DNA from: Planktothrix serta PCC 8927
GTDB taxonomy: Bacteria > Cyanobacteriota > Cyanobacteriia > Cyanobacteriales > Microcoleaceae
Direction of reading: 5' to 3'
Assembly: GCF_900010725.2 (NCBI RefSeq)
Contig: NZ_LR734880.1
Coordinates: 65,595 to 99,606 of the forward strand
Length of the DNA stretch: 34,012 nt
This document shows positions 22,071-34,012 of the stretch, piece after piece; positions within the stretch are counted from its first letter, which is position 1, and the number at the start of each line of letters is the position of its first letter. The translations under genes were made by a program, and so were the position numbers. Below the pieces are notes generated by a model that saw only the letters and a list, made by a program, of their open reading frames with translations, had not been told where the DNA came from and did not search any database.

Positions 22071-22148
22071 GGTTAATTTTGTTTGTCCCAATCCCGACAG
22101 AATTAACAATAGTATGATAGACTATATCCAAGAGTTTTGAAAGCGACA

Positions 22149-22838
22149 ATGTTTCAGGCATACAAATACCGTATCTATCCAAAAATTGAGCAGCAAATCG
22201 CCTTAGCTAAAAGCTTTGGCTGTTGCCGTTGGTATTGGAATTATGCCCTGAATTTATGCCAAGAAACTTATAAAACAACAGGAAAGGGGTGGTCAAGAAC
22301 AGCAATTCAAGGATTGTTACCTCAACTTAAAAAGGAATATCCTTGGCTAAGTTATGCCTATTCTCAATGTTTACAAGTTGTCGCGCTCAACTTATCTACC
22401 GCTTACAAAAACTTTTTTGAGAAACGGGCTAGATTACCTCAATTCAAATCCAAACATAGCAGACAATCAATCAGTTATCCCCAAAATGTTAAGTTTCTAG
22501 GAGATTACCTAAAATTACCCGGTAAAGTGGGGTTGGTTTATTGTGTGCGTCACCGTCCTTATGAAGGGACAATCAAAACCGTTACTGTTTCAAAGAATCG
22601 TGATGGGAAATACTACGCATCTGTGTTAGTTGATGACGGGAAGGAAACACCCAACTTATCAACTCATGACCGTGATCTCAACGCTGCGACAAATATCAAG
22701 AATGAAGCCTTGCGGATTCTGTCGTTGGGAACCAGCGATACTGCTAGTCTGAGGGGATGTCAGTCATCAGAAAAAACTTCTGTTTCTTCAGATGCTATCC
22801 CCGTTGATGCTAGAAGCCCACACTTACTCTACGAGTAA
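22149..22838 (+). pseudogene. tnpB: TnpB (IS200/IS605 OrfB) with internal in-frame deletion
   Basis: The start MFQAYKYRIYPKIEQQ is the standard TnpB N-terminus; the frame opens earlier with TTG at 22137, but ATG 22149 fits the family. The N-terminal helix-turn-helix and wedge-like part are normal to about residue 175 (TVTVSKNRDGKYYASVLV). After PNLST the sequence jumps to HDRDLNAATNIKNEALRIL, which is the RuvC-III end of the protein. The RuvC-I Asp (GIDLGL), RuvC-II Glu and the CxxC zinc finger are missing, about 165 residues in all. The reading frame stays open, giving 229 residues against about 400. It cannot be an RNA-guided nuclease. A -10-like TATGATAGACTATAT lies just upstream, so a shortened protein may still be made. 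Confidence 0.85.
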
Positions 22839-24039: not shown

Positions 24040-24882
24040 TTACTTTTCGTATAGCTGATAAAGTTGGGTTAGTTCCCGTTTAAATTGTTCCCGCACACTA
24101 TCGGGGGCCACAATTTCACAATCTTTGCCATAACGAAACACCTCTCGAATTAACCAAAAGGGATTTACAACCCGTCGCACCACTTGGCGGATATTTCCCA
24201 AAACCTCGTTTTCAACATCTTCCAGTTTCGGTTCATAGGCATTTGCCAACCACCCCCTAAAATGTAAGTACACTTTTAGAGAATCCAGAGAACCTCGCCA
24301 CTCCCCTTCGATGGGTAATATTCCTTGAATTCGGTCTAACCTAAGACATCGATTATGGCGGAGTTCTGGCACATCTTGACTATCTTCTGTTTGATCGCAC
24401 CAAACTTGTAAGTAGAATCGCTTCTCATACAGACGCACTTCTGCATAACGGACAGTAAATTCTAACTCCTGATGTTGGGAGTTTTCATAGGACAAACGAA
24501 AAGGCTGTTGATTCCTAATATATTCGTCAACCTGATTCCGCGCACTTTGCAGAGGTTGGTTCATCTGTTGTAGTAATGCTTGACGCAGAGGAGCTTCTAA
24601 GTTTTCCTGATCCAGTAAAAGTGTAATTAGGGTTTCTGCGTCTTCCACTTGACCCGCATCTAATAAGGCTTTCGTTGCTTGTCGTAAGGCTTTGATTTGT
24701 TTGGCGTTCAGGGTTAATCGGTTACGGCTGACTTGCACTTCATTTTGAGCGATCGCAGCCACTAACCCCGATGCACTGGGATTATCGCCCCATTTAATAT
24801 CCAGGCGTTGGGCGATGTCTTCGAGCTTTTGTTTAGTTCCAGGGGGGACGGACAGGGTTAGGGTTTCTTTTTTTCTAGCCAT
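24040..24882 (-). CDS. WYL-domain transcriptional regulator, divergent to the cas operon
   Basis: A 280-residue protein from ATG 24882; an upstream TTG at 24900 would add six residues and overlap a palindrome. The N-terminus (ETLTLSVPPGTKQKLEDIAQ) resembles a ribbon-helix-helix DNA-binding arm, followed by a helical linker (50-125). The WYL domain (about 125-235) reads EYIRNQQPFRLSYENSQ, FYLQVWCDQ and HNRCLRLDRIQGI; a C-terminal WCX-like extension has VNPFWLIREVFRYGKDCEIV. WYL domains sense nucleic-acid or nucleotide ligands. WYL regulators are frequent next to type I-D loci; Sll7009 of Synechocystis 6803 was reported as a negative regulator of the I-D array. Position and divergence suggest this one controls the neighbouring operon and itself. 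Confidence 0.88.
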   Translation of the reverse strand: MARKKETLTLSVPPGTKQKLEDIAQRLDIKWGDNPSASGLVAAIAQNEVQVSRNRLTLNAKQIKALRQATKALLDAGQVEDAETLITLLLDQENLEAPLRQALLQQMNQPLQSARNQVDEYIRNQQPFRLSYENSQHQELEFTVRYAEVRLYEKRFYLQVWCDQTEDSQDVPELRHNRCLRLDRIQGILPIEGEWRGSLDSLKVYLHFRGWLANAYEPKLEDVENEVLGNIRQVVRRVVNPFWLIREVFRYGKDCEIVAPDSVREQFKRELTQLYQLYEK

Positions 24883-24891
24883 TTTCAAAAA

Positions 24892-24903
24892 TAATTGCAA
24901 TTA
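24892..24903. promoter_or_regulatory. Perfect 12-bp palindrome, candidate operator of the WYL regulator
   Basis: TAATTGCAATTA is its own reverse complement. It lies between the WYL start codon and the -35 box of cas3', and a TTGCAC half-like copy follows at 24908. A ribbon-helix-helix dimer would bind such a short symmetric site. Binding here could block both divergent promoters. The palindrome is directly seen; the regulator link is inference. Confidence 0.45.
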
Positions 24904-24935: not shown

Positions 24936-24980
24936 TAATAAGTGTCAGTGATATTTATTGTAAAACAGGAAAGCCCCATT

Positions 24981-27080
24981 GTGGATACTTACTCTATCAT
25001 ACTCAAGCCTGTTTATTCCTGTCCAGCCTCAGAACCATTGCAGGGCGTGACCTTACCCCCTGGTTGGACATTAGCATGGCATCAGGCGGAAACCTTCAAA
25101 GCGTTGAGTGATCCGAATATTGATATTGTTTTCAATACCGCCATGACAGGGGATGGTAAGAGTTTAGCGGCCTATCTGAAAGCGATGACGGGACGTAATT
25201 ACACCTTAGCCATGTACCCGACTAACGAACTCGCACGGGATCAAGAACGACAAGTCCAGAATTACAAAACTCAATTTCAGCCGGACTATGATCCTCAAAT
25301 TTACCGCTTAAATGGTTCTATTTTAGATGATTTTATCGAAACCAATCAGTTACCCTCTCGACAGCAAGCCTTAATTAATCGCACGAATAACTCAGAAATT
25401 CTACTAACAAATCCTGATATTTTTCACTATATCCATGATTTTCGTTATCTCCGTCGAAATAAGAAAGGCAAAGGCGACAACGCCGACAAACTATTTCGGC
25501 GCATTGATGAATACTATGAGTTATTTATTTTTGACGAATTTCATGTTTTTTCATCTCCTCAAATTGCTAGTGTTATGAATGCGCTGCTGTTGATTAAACA
25601 TACCTCAGTTAATAAAAAATTTCTGTTTCTTTCGGCTACTCCTAGCGAACTTCTGCAAAATTTTCTATTCAAATCAGGCTTGAAGTACCGAATTATTGAT
25701 CCGGTCGCTCAAGGTGCTTATCAATTTGATCCTAATTTAGTTACAACGGGATGGCGACAGGTTAGCCAAGGCATTAACCTAACATTTCCTAATCAGTTAG
25801 AGCCTAATTTTCGTTCCGGTTATGATTGGTTAGTTGAAAATGCTGAAACTACTATCTTAAAATTTTTCCTAGACTATCCTGGCAGTAAAGGAGCAATTAT
25901 TCTTAATTCTATTGCTTCTGTTTATAAACTGTTACCCAAACTCAGATCATTGTTTGAACCTCATGGTTTAAAAGTTATTCCTAATACGAGTTTGACAGGG
26001 GAAACAGAAAAAGCCAAATCAATCGCAGAAGCGGATTTAGTGATTGGAACCTCTACTATTGATATTGGCGTTGATTTTAATATTAATTTTCTCATCTTTG
26101 AAGCGTCTGATGCCGGGAATTTTATTCAACGCTTTGGACGATTAGGAAGACATCCTAATTTTCCCATTTACCAAGCTTATGCTTTAATTCCTAACTTTTT
26201 GGTTGCTCGGTTATTTAGTGAACAATCACCCTTAAAAGTCGGGGAAAACTATGATCGGATCACCTTTACTCAATCGATTCGTTCTTGTTGGTCTTTTGTT
26301 AATCAGTTTGAAAATTATCCTAAACGATGGGGAGGAATTCAATCGGCTTGTGTACATAACGAGTTATTAAACATGAAAAACGAGTATCCACAAGCAGTCA
26401 ATAATTTTAAACGAGATATTGAAAGTGCCTTTGGGATGAGTTTAGGTCATAAATATGGTCAAATTAAACACTGCTTGAATGAAAAGAAAAACAAAATTAT
26501 TCAAGAAGCGCGTAGTTTTCGAGGGAGTAGTCAGCTAGACTGTGCTATTTATGATATGACTAACCCAGAGGAACCGGAAAAAGAACGATTTAAAACCTAT
26601 AATCTTCCTGGCATTCTCAGTAATTTTATTATAGAATGGATGGAAGAAAAAGACTTTATGAAAAAAGTAGAAGTTGCAGGTTTACCTAAAAAACGGTTTG
26701 AAAATGCTTTGTGTTATCTCAAGTTAATTGATTACCGAGAAGTTAGGGAAAATTGGCACTTCTACTATTCAGGAGATGATTTTGATGAAATCAAGAAATC
26801 AGGAAAAGTTCAAGTTCTCAAGGGTTTAGAAATTAGTAATAGCATTAATGCCATTAGTCGGACGTTATATCGGCAAGGAGTAGTGTGTTTTATTTCTGAT
26901 CGCGATCGCAGTTATTTACAAGCTAAATTAGGCTTACCAATGCAATTTCAAGCCTATGGAATAGACGATAAGCTAGATGAGAAGCCTCGCTATACCATTG
27001 CTTTTGGACAGTCAGCCTTAATGTTAGAAACTTTAATTTGGTGTTGGAAACCGAAGGAGGATGAAGGATGGATTTGTTGA
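24981..27080 (+). CDS. cas3: Type I-D CRISPR-associated helicase Cas3'
   Basis: A superfamily 2 helicase of 699 residues from GTG 24981 (MDTYSIILKPVYSCPA, the typical start of this family, with AGGAAAG upstream). The frame opens at GTG 24942, which would coincide with the predicted transcription start. Motifs: Walker A AMTGDGKSLAAYL, Walker B FIFDEFHVF (DEFH), motif III LFLSATPSE, motif VI GNFIQRFGRLGRHPNF, preceded by GTSTIDIGVDFNINF. No HD nuclease domain is present, which is normal for I-D, where HD is carried by Cas10d. It unwinds and translocates along target DNA after Cascade binding. Unlike usual I-D operons, cas10d does not follow directly: about 1.67 kb of other sequence is inserted. 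All motifs look intact. Confidence 0.93.
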   Translation: MDTYSIILKPVYSCPASEPLQGVTLPPGWTLAWHQAETFKALSDPNIDIVFNTAMTGDGKSLAAYLKAMTGRNYTLAMYPTNELARDQERQVQNYKTQFQPDYDPQIYRLNGSILDDFIETNQLPSRQQALINRTNNSEILLTNPDIFHYIHDFRYLRRNKKGKGDNADKLFRRIDEYYELFIFDEFHVFSSPQIASVMNALLLIKHTSVNKKFLFLSATPSELLQNFLFKSGLKYRIIDPVAQGAYQFDPNLVTTGWRQVSQGINLTFPNQLEPNFRSGYDWLVENAETTILKFFLDYPGSKGAIILNSIASVYKLLPKLRSLFEPHGLKVIPNTSLTGETEKAKSIAEADLVIGTSTIDIGVDFNINFLIFEASDAGNFIQRFGRLGRHPNFPIYQAYALIPNFLVARLFSEQSPLKVGENYDRITFTQSIRSCWSFVNQFENYPKRWGGIQSACVHNELLNMKNEYPQAVNNFKRDIESAFGMSLGHKYGQIKHCLNEKKNKIIQEARSFRGSSQLDCAIYDMTNPEEPEKERFKTYNLPGILSNFIIEWMEEKDFMKKVEVAGLPKKRFENALCYLKLIDYREVRENWHFYYSGDDFDEIKKSGKVQVLKGLEISNSINAISRTLYRQGVVCFISDRDRSYLQAKLGLPMQFQAYGIDDKLDEKPRYTIAFGQSALMLETLIWCWKPKEDEGWIC

Positions 27081-27088
27081 GATCGAGT

Positions 27089-27185
27089 AGGAGAAAGGGT
27101 TTTGCCCGACATCAGAAGGCAATAAAGTTTCAATACCTGAAAGGCATTAGTTGCAGTGTTGCACTGCTCTGCTTCCCTTTCTCCT
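27089..27185. repeat. Inverted-repeat-bounded segment after cas3'
   Basis: AGGAGAAAGGG (27089-27099) and CCCTTTCTCCT (27175-27185) are exact inverted repeats, with partly matching flanks (GAGT and CGTC). They enclose 75 bases that hold a CRISPR-repeat-like sequence and a GCAGTG-TTG-CACTGC hairpin (27153-27167). It begins only 9 bases after the cas3' stop. It could be a terminator or processing structure for cas3' mRNA, or a tiny mobile element. There is no T tract directly after the right arm. Confidence 0.5.
27127..27164 (-). repeat. Solitary CRISPR-repeat-like sequence in antisense orientation
   Basis: Read on the minus strand this 38-base sequence starts GTGCAAC and ends CAGGTATTGAAAC. 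The last eight bases, ATTGAAAC, are the classical crRNA 5' handle of many cyanobacterial repeats, and CCTTTCAGG before it is the usual small repeat hairpin. Length also fits a repeat (36-38). Only one copy is seen and no second repeat lies within spacer distance on either side. It may be a relic of an array, or a degenerate repeat as used by crRNA-like regulatory guides. Without the real array of this strain the identity is unproven. Confidence 0.4.
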
Positions 27186-27291
27186 CGTCCCCATCATACC
27201 CCATAATTTTCACTTTGCCTGCATTAGCCGCAACGAGGAAGTTTATCATAAGGCTATAAAGACGTTGACAAAATTAAAAAGGACTGCCAAG

Positions 27292-27897
27292 ATGGTAGAA
27301 ACGTTTACCAGCAACTTTCCTATGCTTATCCAGCTTAACGATAGTGATTTGTTACAGATGCCACTCAGCTTGCGTGCCAATCTCCTGAACTGGGTGCAGA
27401 CGAGACAGATGAAGCCAAACCGACAAGCTCAATCTTCTCAAACCCAGCCATCTCAGATTGAGGCTTATCAGCTACCGATTGATTTTGAGAATCTTGGACA
27501 GGTACAACAGGAAAAGAAATCAAGTCCAGTCTCTATCAAGCTTGTTAAACCATCTCAAGACAGCCCAAACCTTTCGACCCAGAAATTTGATCATGTTCAT
27601 GTCCATCTTTCGCAACTCTTTGATGCGGGAATTCTTACGCAAGCAACCCCACTCCGAGTCAGATTGAAGAAGGAAAACGTTAAGAAATTCGGTTACAGCT
27701 ATATCACCACAGGATTGAAAATCTCCTCTCAAGGTACTGTCCTTTACAAAGGAGAGGAATTCGACAAGCCGAGTCCTTTAGCACAAAAAATTAATGGTAG
27801 TCCTGTTAATGGTTGGGAATATGTCGAAGCGAAAAAGAATGGTCAATGGGTTTGTTTAGATGAATTACGCAAAATTTGGAGAAAAGCTAATGATTAA
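27292..27897 (+). CDS. RAMA-domain protein inside the cas operon
   Basis: A 201-residue soluble protein from ATG 27292. The open frame reaches back to 27151, but the extra residues run through the repeat segment and look non-coding; AAAGGA lies 11 bases before the ATG. Residues 1-40 are helical (SLRANLLNWVQTRQ), 41-100 are a low-complexity Gln/Ser/Pro linker. The region 104-196 reads LSQLFDAGILTQATPLRV, then GTVLYKGEEFDKPSPLAQ and NGWEYVEAKKNGQWVCLDEL. This matches the RAMA (restriction adenine methylase-associated) pattern with the (S)PS/A and NGW motifs. RAMA domains are predicted to read modified DNA and occur in restriction and other conflict systems. No nuclease motif is visible here. 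The gene follows cas3' and precedes xisH on the same strand. Confidence 0.6.
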   Translation: MVETFTSNFPMLIQLNDSDLLQMPLSLRANLLNWVQTRQMKPNRQAQSSQTQPSQIEAYQLPIDFENLGQVQQEKKSSPVSIKLVKPSQDSPNLSTQKFDHVHVHLSQLFDAGILTQATPLRVRLKKENVKKFGYSYITTGLKISSQGTVLYKGEEFDKPSPLAQKINGSPVNGWEYVEAKKNGQWVCLDELRKIWRKAND

Positions 27898-27911
27898 AAC
27901 CTGTCCAAACA

Positions 27912-27951
27912 CTCAAAATTTGAGTAATTTTAGCTCAAATTTAACAAATTT
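27912..27951 (+). promoter_or_regulatory. CTCAAA/TTTGAG inverted repeat cluster before xisH
   Basis: CTCAAAATTTGAG (27912-27924) is a 13-base palindrome around a central A. A third half site CTCAAA follows at 27934-27939, pairing with the TTTGAG at 27919-27924. It lies 30-58 bases upstream of the xisH start codon in an AT-rich gap. It looks like an operator for a dimeric regulator of an internal promoter, though the same symmetry can form weak hairpins. No regulator can be named. Confidence 0.35.
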
Positions 27952-27969
27952 TGTATTCAGGAGGAGGGA

Positions 27970-28452
27970 ATGCCAGCCAGAGATGCGACTCACAAAATTG
28001 TCAAACAAGCTCTGATTAAAGATGGCTGGGAAATTACGGATGATCCTTATGTTATTTCTTATGGTGAACGATTTTTATTTGTTGATTTAGCTGCCAGAGA
28101 ATCCGAACCGTTAAAATCCTTAGAAGGACGATTGATTAGTGCCAAAAAAGATAATTCCAAGATTGCGATTGAAATTAAAGAGTTTAGAGGTCAATCATCA
28201 ATTGCTGATTTACAACAAGCCATCGGACAGTATATACTTTATCGAATTTTACTGTCTCAAGTTGATCCAAAACGGGTACTGTATTTAGCCGTTTCTGATA
28301 TCACTTATAACAATATTTTCAGTGAACCCGTTGGTGAATTAGCTATTGCTGAAATACCTTTAAACTTATTAGTTGTAGATGTCAAACAAGGAGAAGTTAA
28401 ACAATGGATACCTCAGCGACCTACCGAAATATCATCAAACAAATTCTCTTAA
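27970..28452 (+). CDS. xisH: XisH family protein (PD-(D/E)xK-like fold)
   Basis: A 160-residue protein with a strong ribosome-binding site (GGAGGAGGG) before the ATG. The start MPARDATHKIVKQALIKDGW is the hallmark of XisH. D39 in FLFVDLAA, E68-I-K70 in IAIEIKEF and Q87 in the following helix match a PD-(D/E)xK endonuclease core. XisH was first described with XisI as a factor needed for excision of the fdxN element in Anabaena. Homologues are abundant in cyanobacteria without any such element, and their function is unknown. This copy is about 20 residues longer than many because its end (PTEISSNKFS) reads into the start of xisI, overlapping it by 49 bases. Location between cas3' and cas10d is unusual. 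Confidence 0.9.
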   Translation: MPARDATHKIVKQALIKDGWEITDDPYVISYGERFLFVDLAARESEPLKSLEGRLISAKKDNSKIAIEIKEFRGQSSIADLQQAIGQYILYRILLSQVDPKRVLYLAVSDITYNNIFSEPVGELAIAEIPLNLLVVDVKQGEVKQWIPQRPTEISSNKFS

Positions 28453-28724
28453 AATATGCTCAACTTCGTCCCTCTCATGGAGAGATTCGATTAGATGTTG
28501 TTTTTGATGAAATCCGCGATCGCTATGCTCTCATGCAAGTTGGTTGGGATCAAGGGCGAAGAATTAGAGGAAATTTAATTTATATCACGATGCAAAATGA
28601 AAAAATTTATATCGAATACGATGGCATTGAACAGGGAATTACTAAAGAATTAATTCTAGCTGGAATTCCTGAACAGCAAATTATTTTAGCCTTTTTACCT
28701 GAACCTTTACCCGCTTTAACTTAA
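28404..28724 (+). CDS. xisI: XisI family protein
   Basis: A 106-residue protein, the usual partner of XisH. Family motifs: YRNIIKQILLKYAQLRPSHG at the start, VFDEIRDRYALMQVGWD in the middle and IYIEYDGIEQGITKELILAG, then QQIILAFLPE at the end. AAGGAG lies before the ATG, inside the end of xisH. The 49-base overlap in another frame makes translational coupling likely and argues that the two proteins form a complex. The fixed pairing of a nuclease-like protein with a small partner would suit a toxin-antitoxin-like or regulated-nuclease arrangement, but that is inference. The stop is 22 bases before cas10d. Confidence 0.9.
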   Translation: MDTSATYRNIIKQILLKYAQLRPSHGEIRLDVVFDEIRDRYALMQVGWDQGRRIRGNLIYITMQNEKIYIEYDGIEQGITKELILAGIPEQQIILAFLPEPLPALT

Positions 28725-28746
28725 TTTTAATCAGGATATCTTAACC

Positions 28747-31700
28747 ATGAATGAAGATGAACTTCCGCTAGATTTAAACTTTGACCAAATTGAAGAAGAA
28801 GAAACCCCGTCTCAACCTGAATTGTTAACTATTCGCTTATTTAGAGAAGCAATTAAAGGAACTCAGGGGAATGAAGGCGATCACTTATTAGAAACGTTTG
28901 CTGATTGTGTTTTACCTAAACTAATGACGCAATTAGTAGGAGCAACGGCAAAAGGAGGTCAATTCACAGAAGATCGACGTGCAGAGGGAAAAAATGTAGA
29001 ACGGAGTAAAGAAGATCAATCTTTTATTTCCCATCTTCTTAACGGTTTATTTCCGACTTACCGGGTTTTAAAACTTCTCAAAACTTTAGAAACCAATCCA
29101 GTAAAACGGTTTTGTAGTGAGTTAGAAGCGAGTATTTTTATAGCGTCTTATATTCTCCATGATTTTGATAAATTTCCTGACTATCCTATTTGGCTCACTA
29201 ACAATGATCCTGAGCAAAAATTTCAAGGGCGAAATTGGAGGGTAAAAACTGCTAAAAAATCAGATGCACCCAATTTAGGACGAGAATATATTGCTCAGAA
29301 AATTAAAGTGTTGGACTTAGATATTCTTCTGGGGAATAACTGGGAATCCTATATTGATGATTTAATCTGGTTGAGTAATAATGCTGGAGTTAAATATGAT
29401 GCAGATTTAGGCTTAGAAAGTCGAGGTTTGTCTCCTAAGCTAGATGGAAGAGTCAGGGGAATTTTATCAAATTTGGTTAGACTTTCTGATTTATTTGCTT
29501 CCGTGATTAAGCATCCTTTTAATAGTCAAGAAGGAAGTTTAGTTGAAATTCTGAAAGACTTAAGTAATAACCAACTTAAGTTTAGTTATCATGCTTTGTC
29601 CGACAATCGAGGCGTTTTAACCAATATTATTAATAATGCCTTGATGGATCTTCATCCTGAAGACTTTTATACTCCTTTATTGTATCTTCCTGATGGTGTG
29701 GTTTATTTAGCTAAAGTTGATGCTCCTGGTCTTCAAGTTGAAATAATTGCAGAGCAAGTTATTGCTAAAATTAAACAACTTTGTGCGAATCAACTCAAAG
29801 ATCGACAAACGGGTTTTGGTCGAGATGGAAAAGGGCTAAAATTTGCTGATTACTACTGGCTTTTTTTTGAAATTAATGGTTTAATGGAAGTATCAGTTAA
29901 TGCTGCTTGTAGAATTCTGCCATCAACAAAACCTTCCTCTGGTAAAAAACGCAGTGAAAGTTTAAGCAGTTTTCAAAAAAATGGTGAACTTCCTGCTTAT
30001 TTAAACGTGAACTTTGGGGATGATTACCGTATTGATCGATTAGCTGAATTTGGGGATGTTTTGTGTCGAGGAATTTGGCGAGATTGGTGCGATCGCTTTA
30101 ATCAATGGCAAAAACAACAACCGAAATCCAACCGTCAAAATTTACCCGATTTAGATTTAACTGAAAAACTGGCTGAATATTTAGGGTTAACGGATGAAAT
30201 TCCTGCCTTAAAAGCAATTCAATCCCTAAAAAAAACAGGCGGTGTCCCTCTTGATTGGTATTATTTGGCTGCCAAACATAACCAAAGAAATCCCACTTTA
30301 GATGAAGGACAAATTCGGGAAGTCATGGAAGGAATGGTCAACCATGCTGTTAGCTTAGTACAACCGATTGTTCAAGAATTTACCCTTCCCGATGGTTGGG
30401 ATGATTTAAGAACATACATTAATCGTGTGGTATCTTTCCCCACAGGTGCAATTATTCCACCCGAAACTCAACCTTTTTTAGTTGAACTAAGTCGATATAA
30501 AGCTGCCAAAATCACAGGGAGAGGACGGGAAAATGTCTGTGCAATGTCCAGTTCATCTTACACTGTGACGGAACAAATGGAGTCTGCAACCCTATTTACT
30601 CCTCAAGTTTATAGTAATCGTCAGATTCTATTTAATGCTCAAGCGGCAAAGCGACAAATCTGTGCAATTTGGTCAATTGAAATCATGTTGCGACAGATTT
30701 TAATGAACAAAACTAATGCAACAGGAGCAGATTTTGAGGGGGGTAAATACCGTTACTTATACCTCTATCCTGCCTATTTCTTTACCCCAGAAACCAATAA
30801 CTTTCTCCAAAAAGCTTATAGTTTTATTCGTCGAACTCGCTTCGATGCTGATATTCGTAAACACCTGATTACAGAACAACAGCAAGCGCAGTTTAGTCTG
30901 GAAAACTATCAACAAGTTGATTCTCTTTTAATTCAAGAAGAATCGGAGAAAGACCAAACCTTTAAACTCAATTATCCACCCAAACAACCGTTAACATTCT
31001 TCTTCATGGCACTTCCCCCAGGAAGGGATGCCACTGATACAGAATCCTGGGTAATGCCTGCTTGGTTAGGGTTTGTATTGCCCTTAGTTTTGGATGTGAA
31101 AGTTGTAGTTTCAGAATCTCCTGTCCCTCCTTTTATTAGTGGTGCAGATTTTGAACGAACAACGATTTTAGATGGAGAACATCAAGCAATTAACTCTTTA
31201 GTTAAACAACAAAAAGATGGGACTCGCTTAGATAGTATTCTCCCTCGTTCAAAACCGTCTTTTTCCCCTTTGAATGCGTTAAGTGCTGCTTATTGTATTC
31301 ATTTAGAAGTTAATCGCAAAAAGGATGGTGATCCAGATTGGGGTAAATTAGCCGCGTTAGCAAGGGATTTAGAAACCAGCCCTTTGTATGTTTTTCATTA
31401 CCTGACTAAATTAGTCAGAAAGTTGGAATGGGATAGCGCACCTGTCGCCAAAATTAAACTCTACCAACAGTTTTATTATTGTTTTGATCCAGAAGGAAAA
31501 GCCATGAATCAACTTCGAGAATTAACGAGACTTTATCGCGTATTTTATCGTGCCAAAAGCCAATATGCTAAACCCAATGCAGTGCTTAAACCCATTGATG
31601 AAGCAGCCGATGTCATTCTAAAAATTGACAAAGGTTTAGCCAATAATTCCGAATCTTTAACAGATGTGGTGGCGGCACGTCTCTCTAAATTAATGACGAA

Positions 31701-31995
31701 TGTAAGACGGAGAACAGCCGAAGGAAAACCCACCTTAACCTTTAGTGATGGCAAATGGAAACCAGCTTTAAATTCCGAAGAAGAACGTCAAGCAATTTAT
31801 GATTTTGCTCAATTTTTTGTTCAGCAAATTTTTGAGGGAACGTTCAAAGGCGATCGCGGTCGTTTAGCCGGAACACAACTCAATTTAATTCGTGATACTT
31901 GCGATTATCTTTATCGCTTAGAAGATGATCACGAACGTCAAAGTATTAAACAACCGGAACCTGAAGACATTCCCGAACTGGAAGAAGCTTTATAA
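28747..31995 (+). CDS. cas10d: Type I-D Cascade large subunit Cas10d (Csc3) with HD domain
   Basis: A 1082-residue protein. The N-terminal HD nuclease has H138-D139 in SYILHDFDKFPDYP; an RVKTAKKSD region and further helices follow. The central part carries the degenerate palm region and a stretch typical of Csc3, RGRENVCAMSSSSYTV and MESATLFTPQVYSNRQ. No GGDD cyclase motif is seen, as expected for Cas10d. In type I-D systems Cas10d combines the large-subunit role of the Cascade with the HD nuclease that cuts DNA, while Cas3' supplies helicase activity. The acidic N-terminus (NEDELPLDLNFDQIEEEE) and C-terminus (EPEDIPELEEAL) are disordered. The gene is intact and starts 22 bases after xisI; csc2 follows after 55 bases with AGGAAACA before its ATG. 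Confidence 0.95.
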   Translation: MNEDELPLDLNFDQIEEEETPSQPELLTIRLFREAIKGTQGNEGDHLLETFADCVLPKLMTQLVGATAKGGQFTEDRRAEGKNVERSKEDQSFISHLLNGLFPTYRVLKLLKTLETNPVKRFCSELEASIFIASYILHDFDKFPDYPIWLTNNDPEQKFQGRNWRVKTAKKSDAPNLGREYIAQKIKVLDLDILLGNNWESYIDDLIWLSNNAGVKYDADLGLESRGLSPKLDGRVRGILSNLVRLSDLFASVIKHPFNSQEGSLVEILKDLSNNQLKFSYHALSDNRGVLTNIINNALMDLHPEDFYTPLLYLPDGVVYLAKVDAPGLQVEIIAEQVIAKIKQLCANQLKDRQTGFGRDGKGLKFADYYWLFFEINGLMEVSVNAACRILPSTKPSSGKKRSESLSSFQKNGELPAYLNVNFGDDYRIDRLAEFGDVLCRGIWRDWCDRFNQWQKQQPKSNRQNLPDLDLTEKLAEYLGLTDEIPALKAIQSLKKTGGVPLDWYYLAAKHNQRNPTLDEGQIREVMEGMVNHAVSLVQPIVQEFTLPDGWDDLRTYINRVVSFPTGAIIPPETQPFLVELSRYKAAKITGRGRENVCAMSSSSYTVTEQMESATLFTPQVYSNRQILFNAQAAKRQICAIWSIEIMLRQILMNKTNATGADFEGGKYRYLYLYPAYFFTPETNNFLQKAYSFIRRTRFDADIRKHLITEQQQAQFSLENYQQVDSLLIQEESEKDQTFKLNYPPKQPLTFFFMALPPGRDATDTESWVMPAWLGFVLPLVLDVKVVVSESPVPPFISGADFERTTILDGEHQAINSLVKQQKDGTRLDSILPRSKPSFSPLNALSAAYCIHLEVNRKKDGDPDWGKLAALARDLETSPLYVFHYLTKLVRKLEWDSAPVAKIKLYQQFYYCFDPEGKAMNQLRELTRLYRVFYRAKSQYAKPNAVLKPIDEAADVILKIDKGLANNSESLTDVVAARLSKLMTNVRRRTAEGKPTLTFSDGKWKPALNSEEERQAIYDFAQFFVQQIFEGTFKGDRGRLAGTQLNLIRDTCDYLYRLEDDHERQSIKQPEPEDIPELEEAL

Positions 31996-32050: not shown

Positions 32051-33076
32051 ATGCAATTTATTACCACTGTAGATGCTAAACATTTTCACACCGAAATCCC
32101 TGCAAAACCAATGGGAAAATATGCCCATTTTATCACCATTCGTGTGACTGAATCCTATCCTTTATTTCAGACCGATGGAGAACTCAATAAAGCCCGAATT
32201 CGCGCAGGTATTCAGCACAAAGAAACCATTAGCCGTTTAGCCATGTTTAAACGCAAACAATCAACCCCTGAACGTTTAACCGGACGGGAATTATTGCGAA
32301 ACTATCAAATTGGGGATTGGGAAAAATGCGATTATAATGTTGATTTTAGTAAAACAACCCCTGACTGTGTTCTCTATGGTTTTGCTATTGGGGATGCGGG
32401 TTCAGAAAAATCAAAAGTTGTTGTTGATACCGCTTATTCTATTACTTCCTTTGATGATTCTCACCAAAATTTCACCCTGAATGCTCCCTTTGAAAATGGA
32501 ACCATGAGTCGTCAAGGAGTAGTAACCAGTCGTATTAATAGTCAAGATCACATTTTACCTCAAGTTTTCTTTCCCAGTATTATTACCCTAAAAGATCCCA
32601 CAGAAGCTGGATTTTTGTATGTGTTTAATAACATTTTGCGAACCCGTCATTATGGCGCACAAACAACTCGTACAGGTCGAGTCAGAAATGAGTTAATTGG
32701 TGTGGTTTTTGCCGATGGTGAAATTGTGAGTAACCTACGTTGGACACAGAAAATCTATGATTTGATGAAACATAAAGGTCAAATTGAAATGGCAGAACCT
32801 TTGAATGAAGATGATGTTTTAGTTGCTGCTCAAGACGCGATTTCTCAACTCTTGAATCAAGAATATATTCCTCATACTGATTTTATTGGAGATAGTTTAA
32901 CCCCTCTGCTGACAGAAGTTAAAGCGATCACCAGTGATGAAACACGATTGAAAGCGATGTTGGTTCAAGCCAATACAGAATCAATGGCTTATGCTCAAAA
33001 GCACATTATTAAATCAGCAGAAAAAGGTAAAAAAAGCAGCAAAAAAACAGCAACAACTGTAACGGAGTCCAACTAA
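32051..33076 (+). CDS. csc2: Type I-D Cascade backbone Cas7d (Csc2)
   Basis: A 341-residue RAMP-type protein, normal for Csc2. Recognisable segments: YAHFITIRVTESYPLFQTDG near the start (first strand of the RRM), RAGIQHKETISRLAMFKRKQ, the conserved GREFLRNY-like GRELLRNYQIGDWEKCDYN, and LYVFNNILRTRHYGAQTTRT. Several copies bind along the crRNA and form the Cascade filament. The Lys/Ser/Thr-rich tail (KGKKSSKKTATTV) is disordered. A good ribosome-binding site (AAGGAAACA) precedes the ATG. The stop overlaps the csc1 start by one base (TAATG), a strong sign of coupled translation. Confidence 0.95.
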   Translation: MQFITTVDAKHFHTEIPAKPMGKYAHFITIRVTESYPLFQTDGELNKARIRAGIQHKETISRLAMFKRKQSTPERLTGRELLRNYQIGDWEKCDYNVDFSKTTPDCVLYGFAIGDAGSEKSKVVVDTAYSITSFDDSHQNFTLNAPFENGTMSRQGVVTSRINSQDHILPQVFFPSIITLKDPTEAGFLYVFNNILRTRHYGAQTTRTGRVRNELIGVVFADGEIVSNLRWTQKIYDLMKHKGQIEMAEPLNEDDVLVAAQDAISQLLNQEYIPHTDFIGDSLTPLLTEVKAITSDETRLKAMLVQANTESMAYAQKHIIKSAEKGKKSSKKTATTVTESN

Positions 33077-33780
33077 TGACAATGATCTATCGTTGCACAA
33101 TAGAACTGCATGATAGCCTTTATTTTGCCACCCGTGAAATTGGGCGACTCTATGAAACCGAACCCATCCTGCATAATTATGCCCTTTGTTATGCGTTGGG
33201 TTTAATTGATAACCCATCCTATCAAACAACGGTTTCTGAGGAGGATTCCTATCGTTATTTCTGTCCTGAACAAGTTCCTAAATATGCCCAACATTTAACG
33301 CCTTTGAATCAACAGGGAATTTATGTAACTCCCGCCCGAACAGTTAACTATACTGCGGTTCTCAACACTTGGAAATATGCCAATAATAACTATCATGTTG
33401 AGATGGAGAAAACCCAAAAAAATATTCCTAGTTTTGGCAGAACAAAGGAAATTGCTCCCGAAAGCAAGTTTGAGTTTTTTATTCTGACTGAAAACTTGTT
33501 AAAACTGCCAAAATGGATTCGCTTAGGAAAATGGGCAAGTAAGGCAGAATTAACGGTTGAAGAACTGCCAAAACTCAAACGATATCAAGAGAATGAATTT
33601 ATTTTTCCCTATCCTTTGAATCCTCTGGATGTGATGTTTACCCATCAAGTTTTGAGTTATGACACGATTAATATGCCTCCAGTTAGTTTAATTCGTAATG
33701 TCAGAATGCGAGGGGAATATTACACCGTTGAAGGTCTAAAATTGCAAATTCCAGCCCAAATGCAATACCGTTTTAACTAA
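33076..33780 (+). CDS. csc1: Type I-D Cascade subunit Cas5d (Csc1)
   Basis: A 234-residue RAMP protein of normal Csc1 length. It opens IYRCTIELHDSLYFATREIG with RLYETEPILHNYALCYALGL next, the typical Csc1 N-terminus, and ends VSLIRNVRMRGEYYTVEGL. It caps the 5' handle of the crRNA and helps PAM recognition in the I-D Cascade. The ATG overlaps the csc2 stop by one base; a second ATG two codons later is possible. In most I-D operons cas6, cas4, cas1 and cas2 follow closely. Here at least 232 bases of non-coding repeats come next and no cas6 start is seen before the window ends. Confidence 0.95.
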   Translation: MTMIYRCTIELHDSLYFATREIGRLYETEPILHNYALCYALGLIDNPSYQTTVSEEDSYRYFCPEQVPKYAQHLTPLNQQGIYVTPARTVNYTAVLNTWKYANNNYHVEMEKTQKNIPSFGRTKEIAPESKFEFFILTENLLKLPKWIRLGKWASKAELTVEELPKLKRYQENEFIFPYPLNPLDVMFTHQVLSYDTINMPPVSLIRNVRMRGEYYTVEGLKLQIPAQMQYRFN

Positions 33781-34012
33781 TCCATATCTATCTACCCGTA
33801 GGGGCGAGGTCTCCTCGCCCAGTGAGTTACGATTTGGGCAGGGTTTGGGCGGGAAAACCTCGCCCCTACAAAATCTTGAAAATCAGATAGGGGTTTGTGT
33901 TTTAAGCAAGGGTTTGGGCGGGAAAACCCATCGGTGTCAACTTAAGTCTAAAAGCCTTGAAATAAATTTCAGGCTCAAAGCTAAAACCCGTTAAAACGGG
34001 TTAATGAAGAAT
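33781..34012. repeat. Palindromic repeat region downstream of csc1
   Basis: There is no gene in this end stretch. GTAGGGGCGAGGT (33798-33810) and ACCTCGCCCCTAC (33857-33869) are exact 13-bp inverted repeats. GGGTTTGGGCGGGAAAACC occurs twice in direct orientation (33841-33859 and 33910-33928). A hairpin GCCTTGAAAT/ATTTCAGGC spans 33954-33974, and AACCCGTT/AACGGGTT (33985-33992, 33995-34002) forms a perfect 8-bp hairpin. The first palindrome is of the same GTAGGGG type as the element at 4121-4249. These are common dispersed cyanobacterial repeats. No CRISPR array is present here. Confidence 0.6.

Follow-up and report, generated by a model that had tools for sequence, protein, structure and literature searches.

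A putative CreA-guided guard module in a cyanobacterial type I-D CRISPR operon

In CreTA systems a guide behind one or more degenerate CRISPR (clustered regularly interspaced short palindromic repeats) repeats outside the array pairs through positions 1-5 and 7-11 with a site in a nearby promoter flanked by a protospacer adjacent motif (PAM). This seed rule was shown by experiment for haloarchaeal CreA (PMC8501985). In the I-F system of Acinetobacter, CreTA lies between cas3 and csy1 and creA is divergent from creT (PMC10097628). The window described here is a stretch of 34,012 nucleotides from Planktothrix serta PCC 8927 (positions 65595-99606 of contig NZ_LR734880.1, in a cyanobacterial genome of 6.27 Mb), in which a gap between cas3' and cas10d of a type I-D operon holds a RAMA-type gene and an xisH-xisI pair. 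Its sequence suggests that the gap is likely to contain a CreA-guided guard module of the CreTA/CrePA kind. The CRISPR machinery would probably silence the RAMA gene, whose expression would start once that machinery is lost or inhibited.

The locus resembles CreTA in its degenerate repeat outside an array, in the seed match of its guide to a PAM-flanked site at a predicted promoter and, as in the I-F system (PMC10097628), in a creA divergent from the gene proposed to be repressed. It differs in belonging to type I-D and to cyanobacteria, in having a protein gene (RAMA or, in relatives, one of four small families) in place of a small toxic RNA, in pairing that runs on to about position 17 and, in the window's clade, in a creA with one repeat and a 5'-3' terminal stem. 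As in CrePA, a CreA-like guide would repress a gene for a protein with a probable DNA-binding domain. However, CreP is typically a KilA-N protein that blocks division (PMC12737573), whereas RAMA is the sole relevant Pfam hit here and KilA-N is absent from the Pfam matches; a DNA-binding RAMA effector would nevertheless parallel CreP with its KilA-N domain (PMC12737573). With CreR the locus shares a guide resembling CRISPR RNA near cas genes and, as proposed here, repression directed by Cascade (CRISPR-associated complex for antiviral defence), but no match in the cas3' promoter region is among the matches listed and guide identity follows the accessory gene. In its cas3', cas10d, csc2 and csc1 genes, WYL neighbour, GTN PAM and 8-nt handle it is like the I-D systems of Synechocystis and Microcystis, as far as the available texts on these go.

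The pairing rule and the guard idea are already known from CreTA and CrePA. Within the literature searched, four features appear to be new: a putative module of this kind in type I-D, its distribution across cyanobacteria, the protein families encoded downstream of the target, and the swapping of entire cassettes. None of the papers among the matches listed deals with CreTA, CrePA or CreR in cyanobacteria or in type I-D, although an earlier mention in the founding papers is possible. The available main texts of PMC8501985, PMC9458426, PMC10097628 and PMC12737573 do not mention 'I-D' or 'cyanobact', nor does that of a review of I-D systems mention 'toxin'. Type I-D is the commonest type I system in cyanobacteria, with 63.2% of surveyed genomes (PMC11903412).

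Guide and target in the cas3'-cas10d gap

Relatives came from a Cas10d scan, from which the best 80 of 150 loci were fetched, so that the sample is skewed to kin. The end of cas3' and the start of cas10d were both found in 75 of the 80, the other five having no usable gap. A preliminary description of the window took cas3' and cas10d to be neighbours as a rule; this does not hold for these cyanobacterial I-D loci, in which the gap (measured between tblastn match ends) spans 132 to 3043 bp and is at least 500 bp in 63 of 75. It is about 85 bp in four diverged loci of the window's genus.

As the first bases of many gaps translate like CRISPR repeats, the loci were scanned for degenerate repeat copies, using 24 core bases taken from the array repeat of the locus itself or, for loci without a visible array, from a consensus. 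There were 84 matches of at least 17/24 on both strands of 99 kb of gap (window included), compared with 4 in 220 kb of the cas10d gene. Degenerate repeats are present in 47 of the 75 loci and in the window, with L040 and L044 next at lower score. They sit behind cas3' on the minus strand, the exceptions being 17/24 plus-strand matches of the near-palindromic core. The window's clade has mostly one repeat, while a second clade (Cas10d about 46-48% identical) usually has two, mostly 62-85 bases apart. The 'repeat segment' of the preliminary description is one degenerate minus-strand copy of the CRISPR repeat, within the cas locus but outside the array. The module reads as follows:

27090-27184, minus: putative creA-like RNA gene, comprising leader hairpin, degenerate repeat, guide and terminal stem (from the fold and an alignment with 21 relatives)
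27089-27099 and 27175-27185: inverted-repeat arms, 100% complementary, that would pair both ends of the creA-like RNA
27127-27163, minus: degenerate CRISPR repeat, 20/24 core bases identical to the same-contig array repeat, ending in the 8-nt handle ATTGAAAC
27092-27126, minus: guide (pseudo-spacer), read from 27126 downwards, conserved in relatives
27226-27260, minus: guide target (protospacer), PAM GTC at 27263-27261, 14/15 read positions matching
27265-27293, plus: predicted promoter-like site of the RAMA gene, TTGACA at 27265-27270, 17 nt, CAAGAT at 27288-27293
27322-27897, plus: RAMA-type gene (191 aa), the proposed CreA-repressed gene; Pfam RAMA E 5e-6, below cut-off; 13 relatives at 45-52% identity

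Pairing was scored over the 15 positions that a type I effector reads, in the 265 bases behind the repeat and against 400 shuffles per locus (lowest attainable p 0.0025). The window's guide matches its target at positions 1-5, 7-11 and 13-16, with mismatches at 6 and 12, giving 14/15 (shuffle mean 7.5, p = 0.0025) and 10/10 in the seed. The same pattern of matches and mismatches is found in known CreA guides. With L036 and L061 left out for want of a target region and L093 for having just an inner repeat, a guide-target pair was found in 45 of 47 testable loci (46 others and the window): in all 20 of the window's clade (p 0.0025-0.0224) and in 25 of 27 of the second clade (p ≤ 0.01), where L087 and L101 fail. 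Match rates in the window's clade are 1.00 at positions 1-5, 0.10 at 6, 0.80-1.00 at 7-11, 0.05 at 12, 0.65-0.90 at 13-17 and low beyond; in the second clade positions 6 and 12 match at 0.37 and pairing stops at 16. When targets were picked on positions 1-5 and 7-9 alone, the pattern of the window's clade held at 10-17, and that of the second clade (25/27 usable) was less sharp, reaching 16.

Scores of at least 11/15 were reached by 3 of 883 real array spacers, compared with 37 of 38 creA guides from the same 38 loci. A search of each complete locus for the best seed match following a GT PAM placed the top match of 42 of 49 guides (taken from the repeat-bearing loci, some of which gave two) in the same gap, at +157 to +326 from cas3'. 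The extended motif GTN-TTTAT-N-GCCTT-N-TGAT occurs once in the 6.27-Mb genome, at the guide target. Nine different seeds occur in the window's clade together with L139 (entered by hand), and there guides match their own targets better than swapped ones (mean of 10 positions 9.62 v 7.90), as they do in the second clade (9.08 v 3.79); none of 20,000 permutations gave as high an advantage in either clade. Among ten further loci outside the earlier set, four had no repeat, one had an inner repeat only and five had an outer repeat; guide and target pair in 4 of these 5, including two from the window's genus, but not in L120. The guides of L087 and L120 are similar to each other.

The putative creA-like RNA is predicted to fold with its ends paired (-37 kcal/mol, z -4.5 in the window; z -2.6 to -4.6 in three relatives), and the proposed structure gives standard pairs in 92.7% of alignment cells. 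In the terminal stem (helix 1) both sides have changed at 3 of 10 pairs, largely inside one group of related loci. The promoter-like site of the RAMA gene has 9/12 consensus bases and begins one base from the PAM; across the window's clade 0-3 bases separate the PAM from the best -35-like hexamer. The best promoter score beside the PAM averages 8.0/12, compared with 6.6 in shuffles, and is at least 9 in 7 of 20 loci, compared with 3.8% of shuffles; at least five bases of TTGACA are present in 8/20.

The RAMA gene and other accessory genes

RAMA domains are described as readers of modified bases in PMC12839542, and the product of the RAMA-type gene is a probable DNA-binding modified-base reader. 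It scores 26.8 bits against the RAMA domain (PF18755; cut-off 35.2), and its relative in L047 scores 36.8 bits; a profile search of solved structures gave no relative. TTG at 27151 was rejected as its start, since alignment with relatives points to ATG at 27322. Among 388 genomes of the order, 14 have one RAMA match each (two tails only and one without a start); 13 of these matches are neighbours of I-D cas genes and the fourteenth lies in a Dnd locus. In a 386-genome sample of the phylum there are four. At most nine candidates per genome were scored, so matches may be missing, and 10 of the 14 genomes were already among the 80 loci and thus are not new evidence. In the Dnd locus (L145:1632-13709) a full-length RAMA homologue stands beside dndB, dndC, dndD and a dnd-associated gene of DNA phosphorothioation (NCBIfam), with no creA seen by eye. 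Because of this copy, RAMA was rejected as a strictly I-D gene.

Within the window's clade, RAMA is associated with creA (states of both set by hand, with L061 counted as lacking creA). The 21 loci with an intact creA have an intact RAMA frame in 13 cases, a decayed one in 6 and none in 2 (L036 and L076), compared with no intact RAMA in the 20 loci without intact creA (Fisher 1.6e-5); on independent pairs the median p was 0.016 (range 0.008-0.06). Neither gene is found in 16 of the 41 loci. L049, L061, L071 and L072 keep a RAMA tail and have lost the promoter and RAMA start, L036 retains creA but lacks any target region, and L163, outside the set, keeps a creA-like stretch but has lost the target and the RAMA start. 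A window-type cassette of creA, target and RAMA, with DUF433- and DUF5615-like genes, also stands in L139 (3156-8102) before an I-D effector that differs from the window's (a cas10d encoding 907 aa, csc2, csc1 and cas3); its guide and target have both changed at position 1.

In the second clade, 25 targets are followed by one of four unrelated small proteins, which we named helix-turn-helix-like (10), coiled-coil-like (7), 'LFD' (6) and 'MSQQ' (2); no Pfam family exceeded its cut-off in the representatives scanned. Guides of this clade fall into six hand-set groups of 2-6 loci, each with one gene family (22/22 loci), and three more loci are singletons; L101 was labelled by hand and then left out of the group and tree analysis. 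A FastTree phylogeny of Cas10d requires no fewer than 11 switches of protein family and no fewer than 16 of guide group. As guide groups follow the gene family while both switch on the tree, guide, promoter and gene seem to travel together as a cassette; the same pattern argues against a guide kept for control of Cas10d.

The gaps hold other genes as well. When 191 gap open reading frames (ORFs) were clustered and one representative per cluster was scanned against Pfam, the clusters included DUF433 (41 ORFs), DUF5615/PIN-like (28), RAMA (20), YhcG/DUF1016 PD-(D/E)XK nuclease (20), HepT-like (13) and MNT-type nucleotidyltransferase (11). ORFs of the DUF433 and DUF5615 clusters occur together in 26 of 75 gaps. 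The DUF433-DUF5615, HepT-MNT and YhcG genes are presumably toxin-antitoxin or conflict genes.

Proposed control and its alternatives

In the proposed mechanism, the creA-like guide would lead the I-D Cascade to the site beside the RAMA promoter and so repress the RAMA gene, pairing over about 17 bases presumably being enough for DNA binding and not for cleavage. Loss of Cascade, or its block by an anti-CRISPR, would open the promoter, and the RAMA protein, perhaps with the XisHI pair, would then be made and would harm the cell or attack the invader. If true, RNA-guided gene control by CRISPR effectors extends to type I-D, with swappable protein families as the controlled products, and the accessory genes between cas3' and cas10d are accounted for. 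It would also give a direct way to ask whether addiction holds CRISPR systems in genomes, and removing I-D genes from strains of this kind may prove toxic.

A broader version of the guard model is possible, though doubtful. The gap would be an exchangeable slot of type I-D, in which cassettes of guide, promoter and effector (at least five unrelated families) plug into different Cascades; the RAMA product would read modified DNA, so that once CRISPR activity is lost a second defence, based on DNA modification, would take over, and XisHI would serve as the nuclease of that defence. One RAMA relative stands in a phosphorothioation locus.

Several points weigh against a CreA-guided guard. The guide is kept in the 8 of 21 window-clade loci with RAMA decayed (6) or absent (2), so that some other use of it may remain. 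The seed is unremarkable genome-wide, since the bare 10 bases with PAM occur twice in the window's own genome and a reversed control occurs seven times. L087, L101 and L120 have a mini-CRISPR and no target within the roughly 300 bases searched, and as the loci are related, combined p-values overstate the case. Sequence support for the RAMA promoter is moderate, and that for a creA promoter on the minus strand is weak (5/6 of the -10 hexamer in 6 of 21 loci; shuffles 13%). A generic promoter scan of the window lists neither; the second hexamer of the RAMA site, at only 3/6, is under its limit. A generic scan also lists no plus-strand terminator-like site between the guide module and cas10d, so that cas10d, csc2 and csc1 could be regulated too. 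The creA-like RNA gene is itself deduced from sequence, and its expression and processing are predictions. Release of RAMA as an effector is something we infer, as is the 'released when Cascade fails' of the preliminary description, and toxicity of RAMA is hypothetical.

The shared strand and the lack of a listed terminator-like site would also fit autoregulation of the kind called CreR in a review (PMC12737573). Here Cascade would curb its own production, as transcription of cas10d-csc2-csc1 would start at the guided promoter and cross the gap, and the accessory genes would be bystanders. Retention of guide and target in loci with a decayed RAMA fits this too. Nevertheless we consider autoregulation unlikely, because guide groups track the accessory gene while that gene changes on the Cas10d tree, both creA and RAMA are missing from 16 of 41 window-clade loci, L036 has creA without a target region, and L163 has lost target and RAMA start. 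In addition, the matches listed (top three per guide) include none in the WYL-cas3' intergenic region.

Less probable again is that the repressed product is an RNA toxin in the transcript leader, with RAMA merely downstream. The CreT known from I-B and I-F systems are short toxic RNAs that carry mini-ORFs (PMC8501985; PMC10097628), and a toxin of this type would account for a guide kept where RAMA has decayed. However, in the window's clade only a few dozen bases separate the -10-like box from the RAMA start and no conserved mini-ORF was seen there by eye, while conserved small proteins stand behind the second-clade targets.

That the gap is a passive insertion hotspot, where accessory genes land with no functional link to the cas genes, is very improbable as a general explanation. 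It would suit the highly variable gap content (DUF433, DUF5615, YhcG, HepT, MNT) and the presence of XisHI in the window's gap only, but chance does not yield guide-target pairing, mismatches at 6 and 12, or co-variation of guide and target. Passive insertion is disfavoured for the RAMA part and may well be true for XisHI itself. Finally, although I-D transposons of cyanobacteria exist (PMC12669027), it is most improbable that the guide serves the homing of a CRISPR-associated transposon or is simply a self-targeting spacer, as the target is in the same gap, 100-200 bp off, pairing covers only about 17 bases, and creA-like guides are kept among species, whereas array spacers are not common to different loci (0/976 12-mers).

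The XisH-XisI pair and the operon

The genes behind RAMA belong to the families of the fdxN excision controlling factors, with full-length Pfam matches over cut-off and relatives in the PDB, and differ from these in standing within a cas operon. An excision element of the fdxN type did not come up at the locus, where no search was aimed at one.

27912-27924: palindrome CTCAAAATTTGAG in the RAMA-xisH intergenic stretch, seen in the sequence itself
27970-28452, plus: xisH (PF08814, 163.2 bits, E 4.8e-48, cut-off 25; PDB relatives 2okf and 2inb)
28404-28724, plus: xisI, overlapping xisH by 49 bp (PF08869, 112.9 bits, E 1.3e-32, cut-off 25; PDB relatives 3d7q and 2nwv)

The palindrome is a possible operator of the pair. 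XisH has a PD-(D/E)xK core. Neither XisH nor XisI was found in the 75 other gaps (tblastn), nor over 40 bits in L118-L133, and XisHI was therefore rejected as a recurrent I-D component. The pair occupies the place behind the RAMA gene where relatives carry DUF433-DUF5615 pairs, and XisH has four matches in its own genome. XisHI is probably an ordinary local swap-in; in relatives the slot it occupies is filled by toxin-antitoxin-like genes. Elsewhere, an XisH-XisI pair stands several kb downstream of another I-D operon (L091:21598-22286).

The preliminary description proposed that the whole cassette depends on, or guards, the I-D system, and asked for RAMA or XisHI in other I-D gaps. The proposal is supported for the RAMA part, through a CreA-like guide aimed at the predicted RAMA promoter, and is not supported for XisHI (0/75 gaps). 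Likewise, the passive insertion that it set against this proposal, a single-strain arrangement with its parts scattered elsewhere, describes XisHI among these loci but not RAMA, which is beside I-D genes in 13 of 14 genomes. Its gene order and coordinates, with cas3' and cas10d split by a RAMA-type ORF and an overlapping xisH-xisI on one strand, are correct, and the cas and XisHI families agree with NCBIfam, PADLOC and Pfam.

The operon runs cas3', RAMA-type gene, xisH, xisI, cas10d, csc2, csc1, all on the plus strand, with a divergent WYL regulator in front, and has the Cas3d, Cas10d/Csc3, Csc2 and Csc1 gene set of type I-D (NCBIfam/PADLOC):

24040-24900, minus: WYL-domain regulator gene, divergent from cas3' (Pfam WYL/WCX; PADLOC WYL)
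24942-27080, plus: cas3', type I-D helicase (TIGR03158, 290 bits; PADLOC Cas3d)
28747-31995, plus: cas10d/csc3 (TIGR03174, 618 bits)
32051-33076, plus: csc2/cas7d (TIGR03157, 334 bits)
33076-33780, plus: csc1/cas5d (TIGR03159, 228 bits)

A 26-copy CRISPR array begins 39 bases beyond the window's end. Outside the operon, cas6, cas4, cas1 and cas2 are on a separate contig of 3,340 bases (C31; L174:1-3340) that starts with the same array repeat, so that the I-D system is probably complete and the assembly or the locus broken there. These adaptation and cas6 genes are 69-78% identical to those of L035, cas6 being 70% identical to the I-D cas6 of that locus. The break between csc1 and the array is likely to be an assembly break or a rearrangement. 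An inverted repeat and a 20-base direct repeat lie behind csc1 (33798-33928). Upstream of the WYL gene, an ORF at 22137-22838 has the helix-turn-helix domain of IS605 OrfB, and in L055 (691-3589) a second, diverged I-D csc2-csc1-cas3 set lies upstream of the WYL gene of the same locus.

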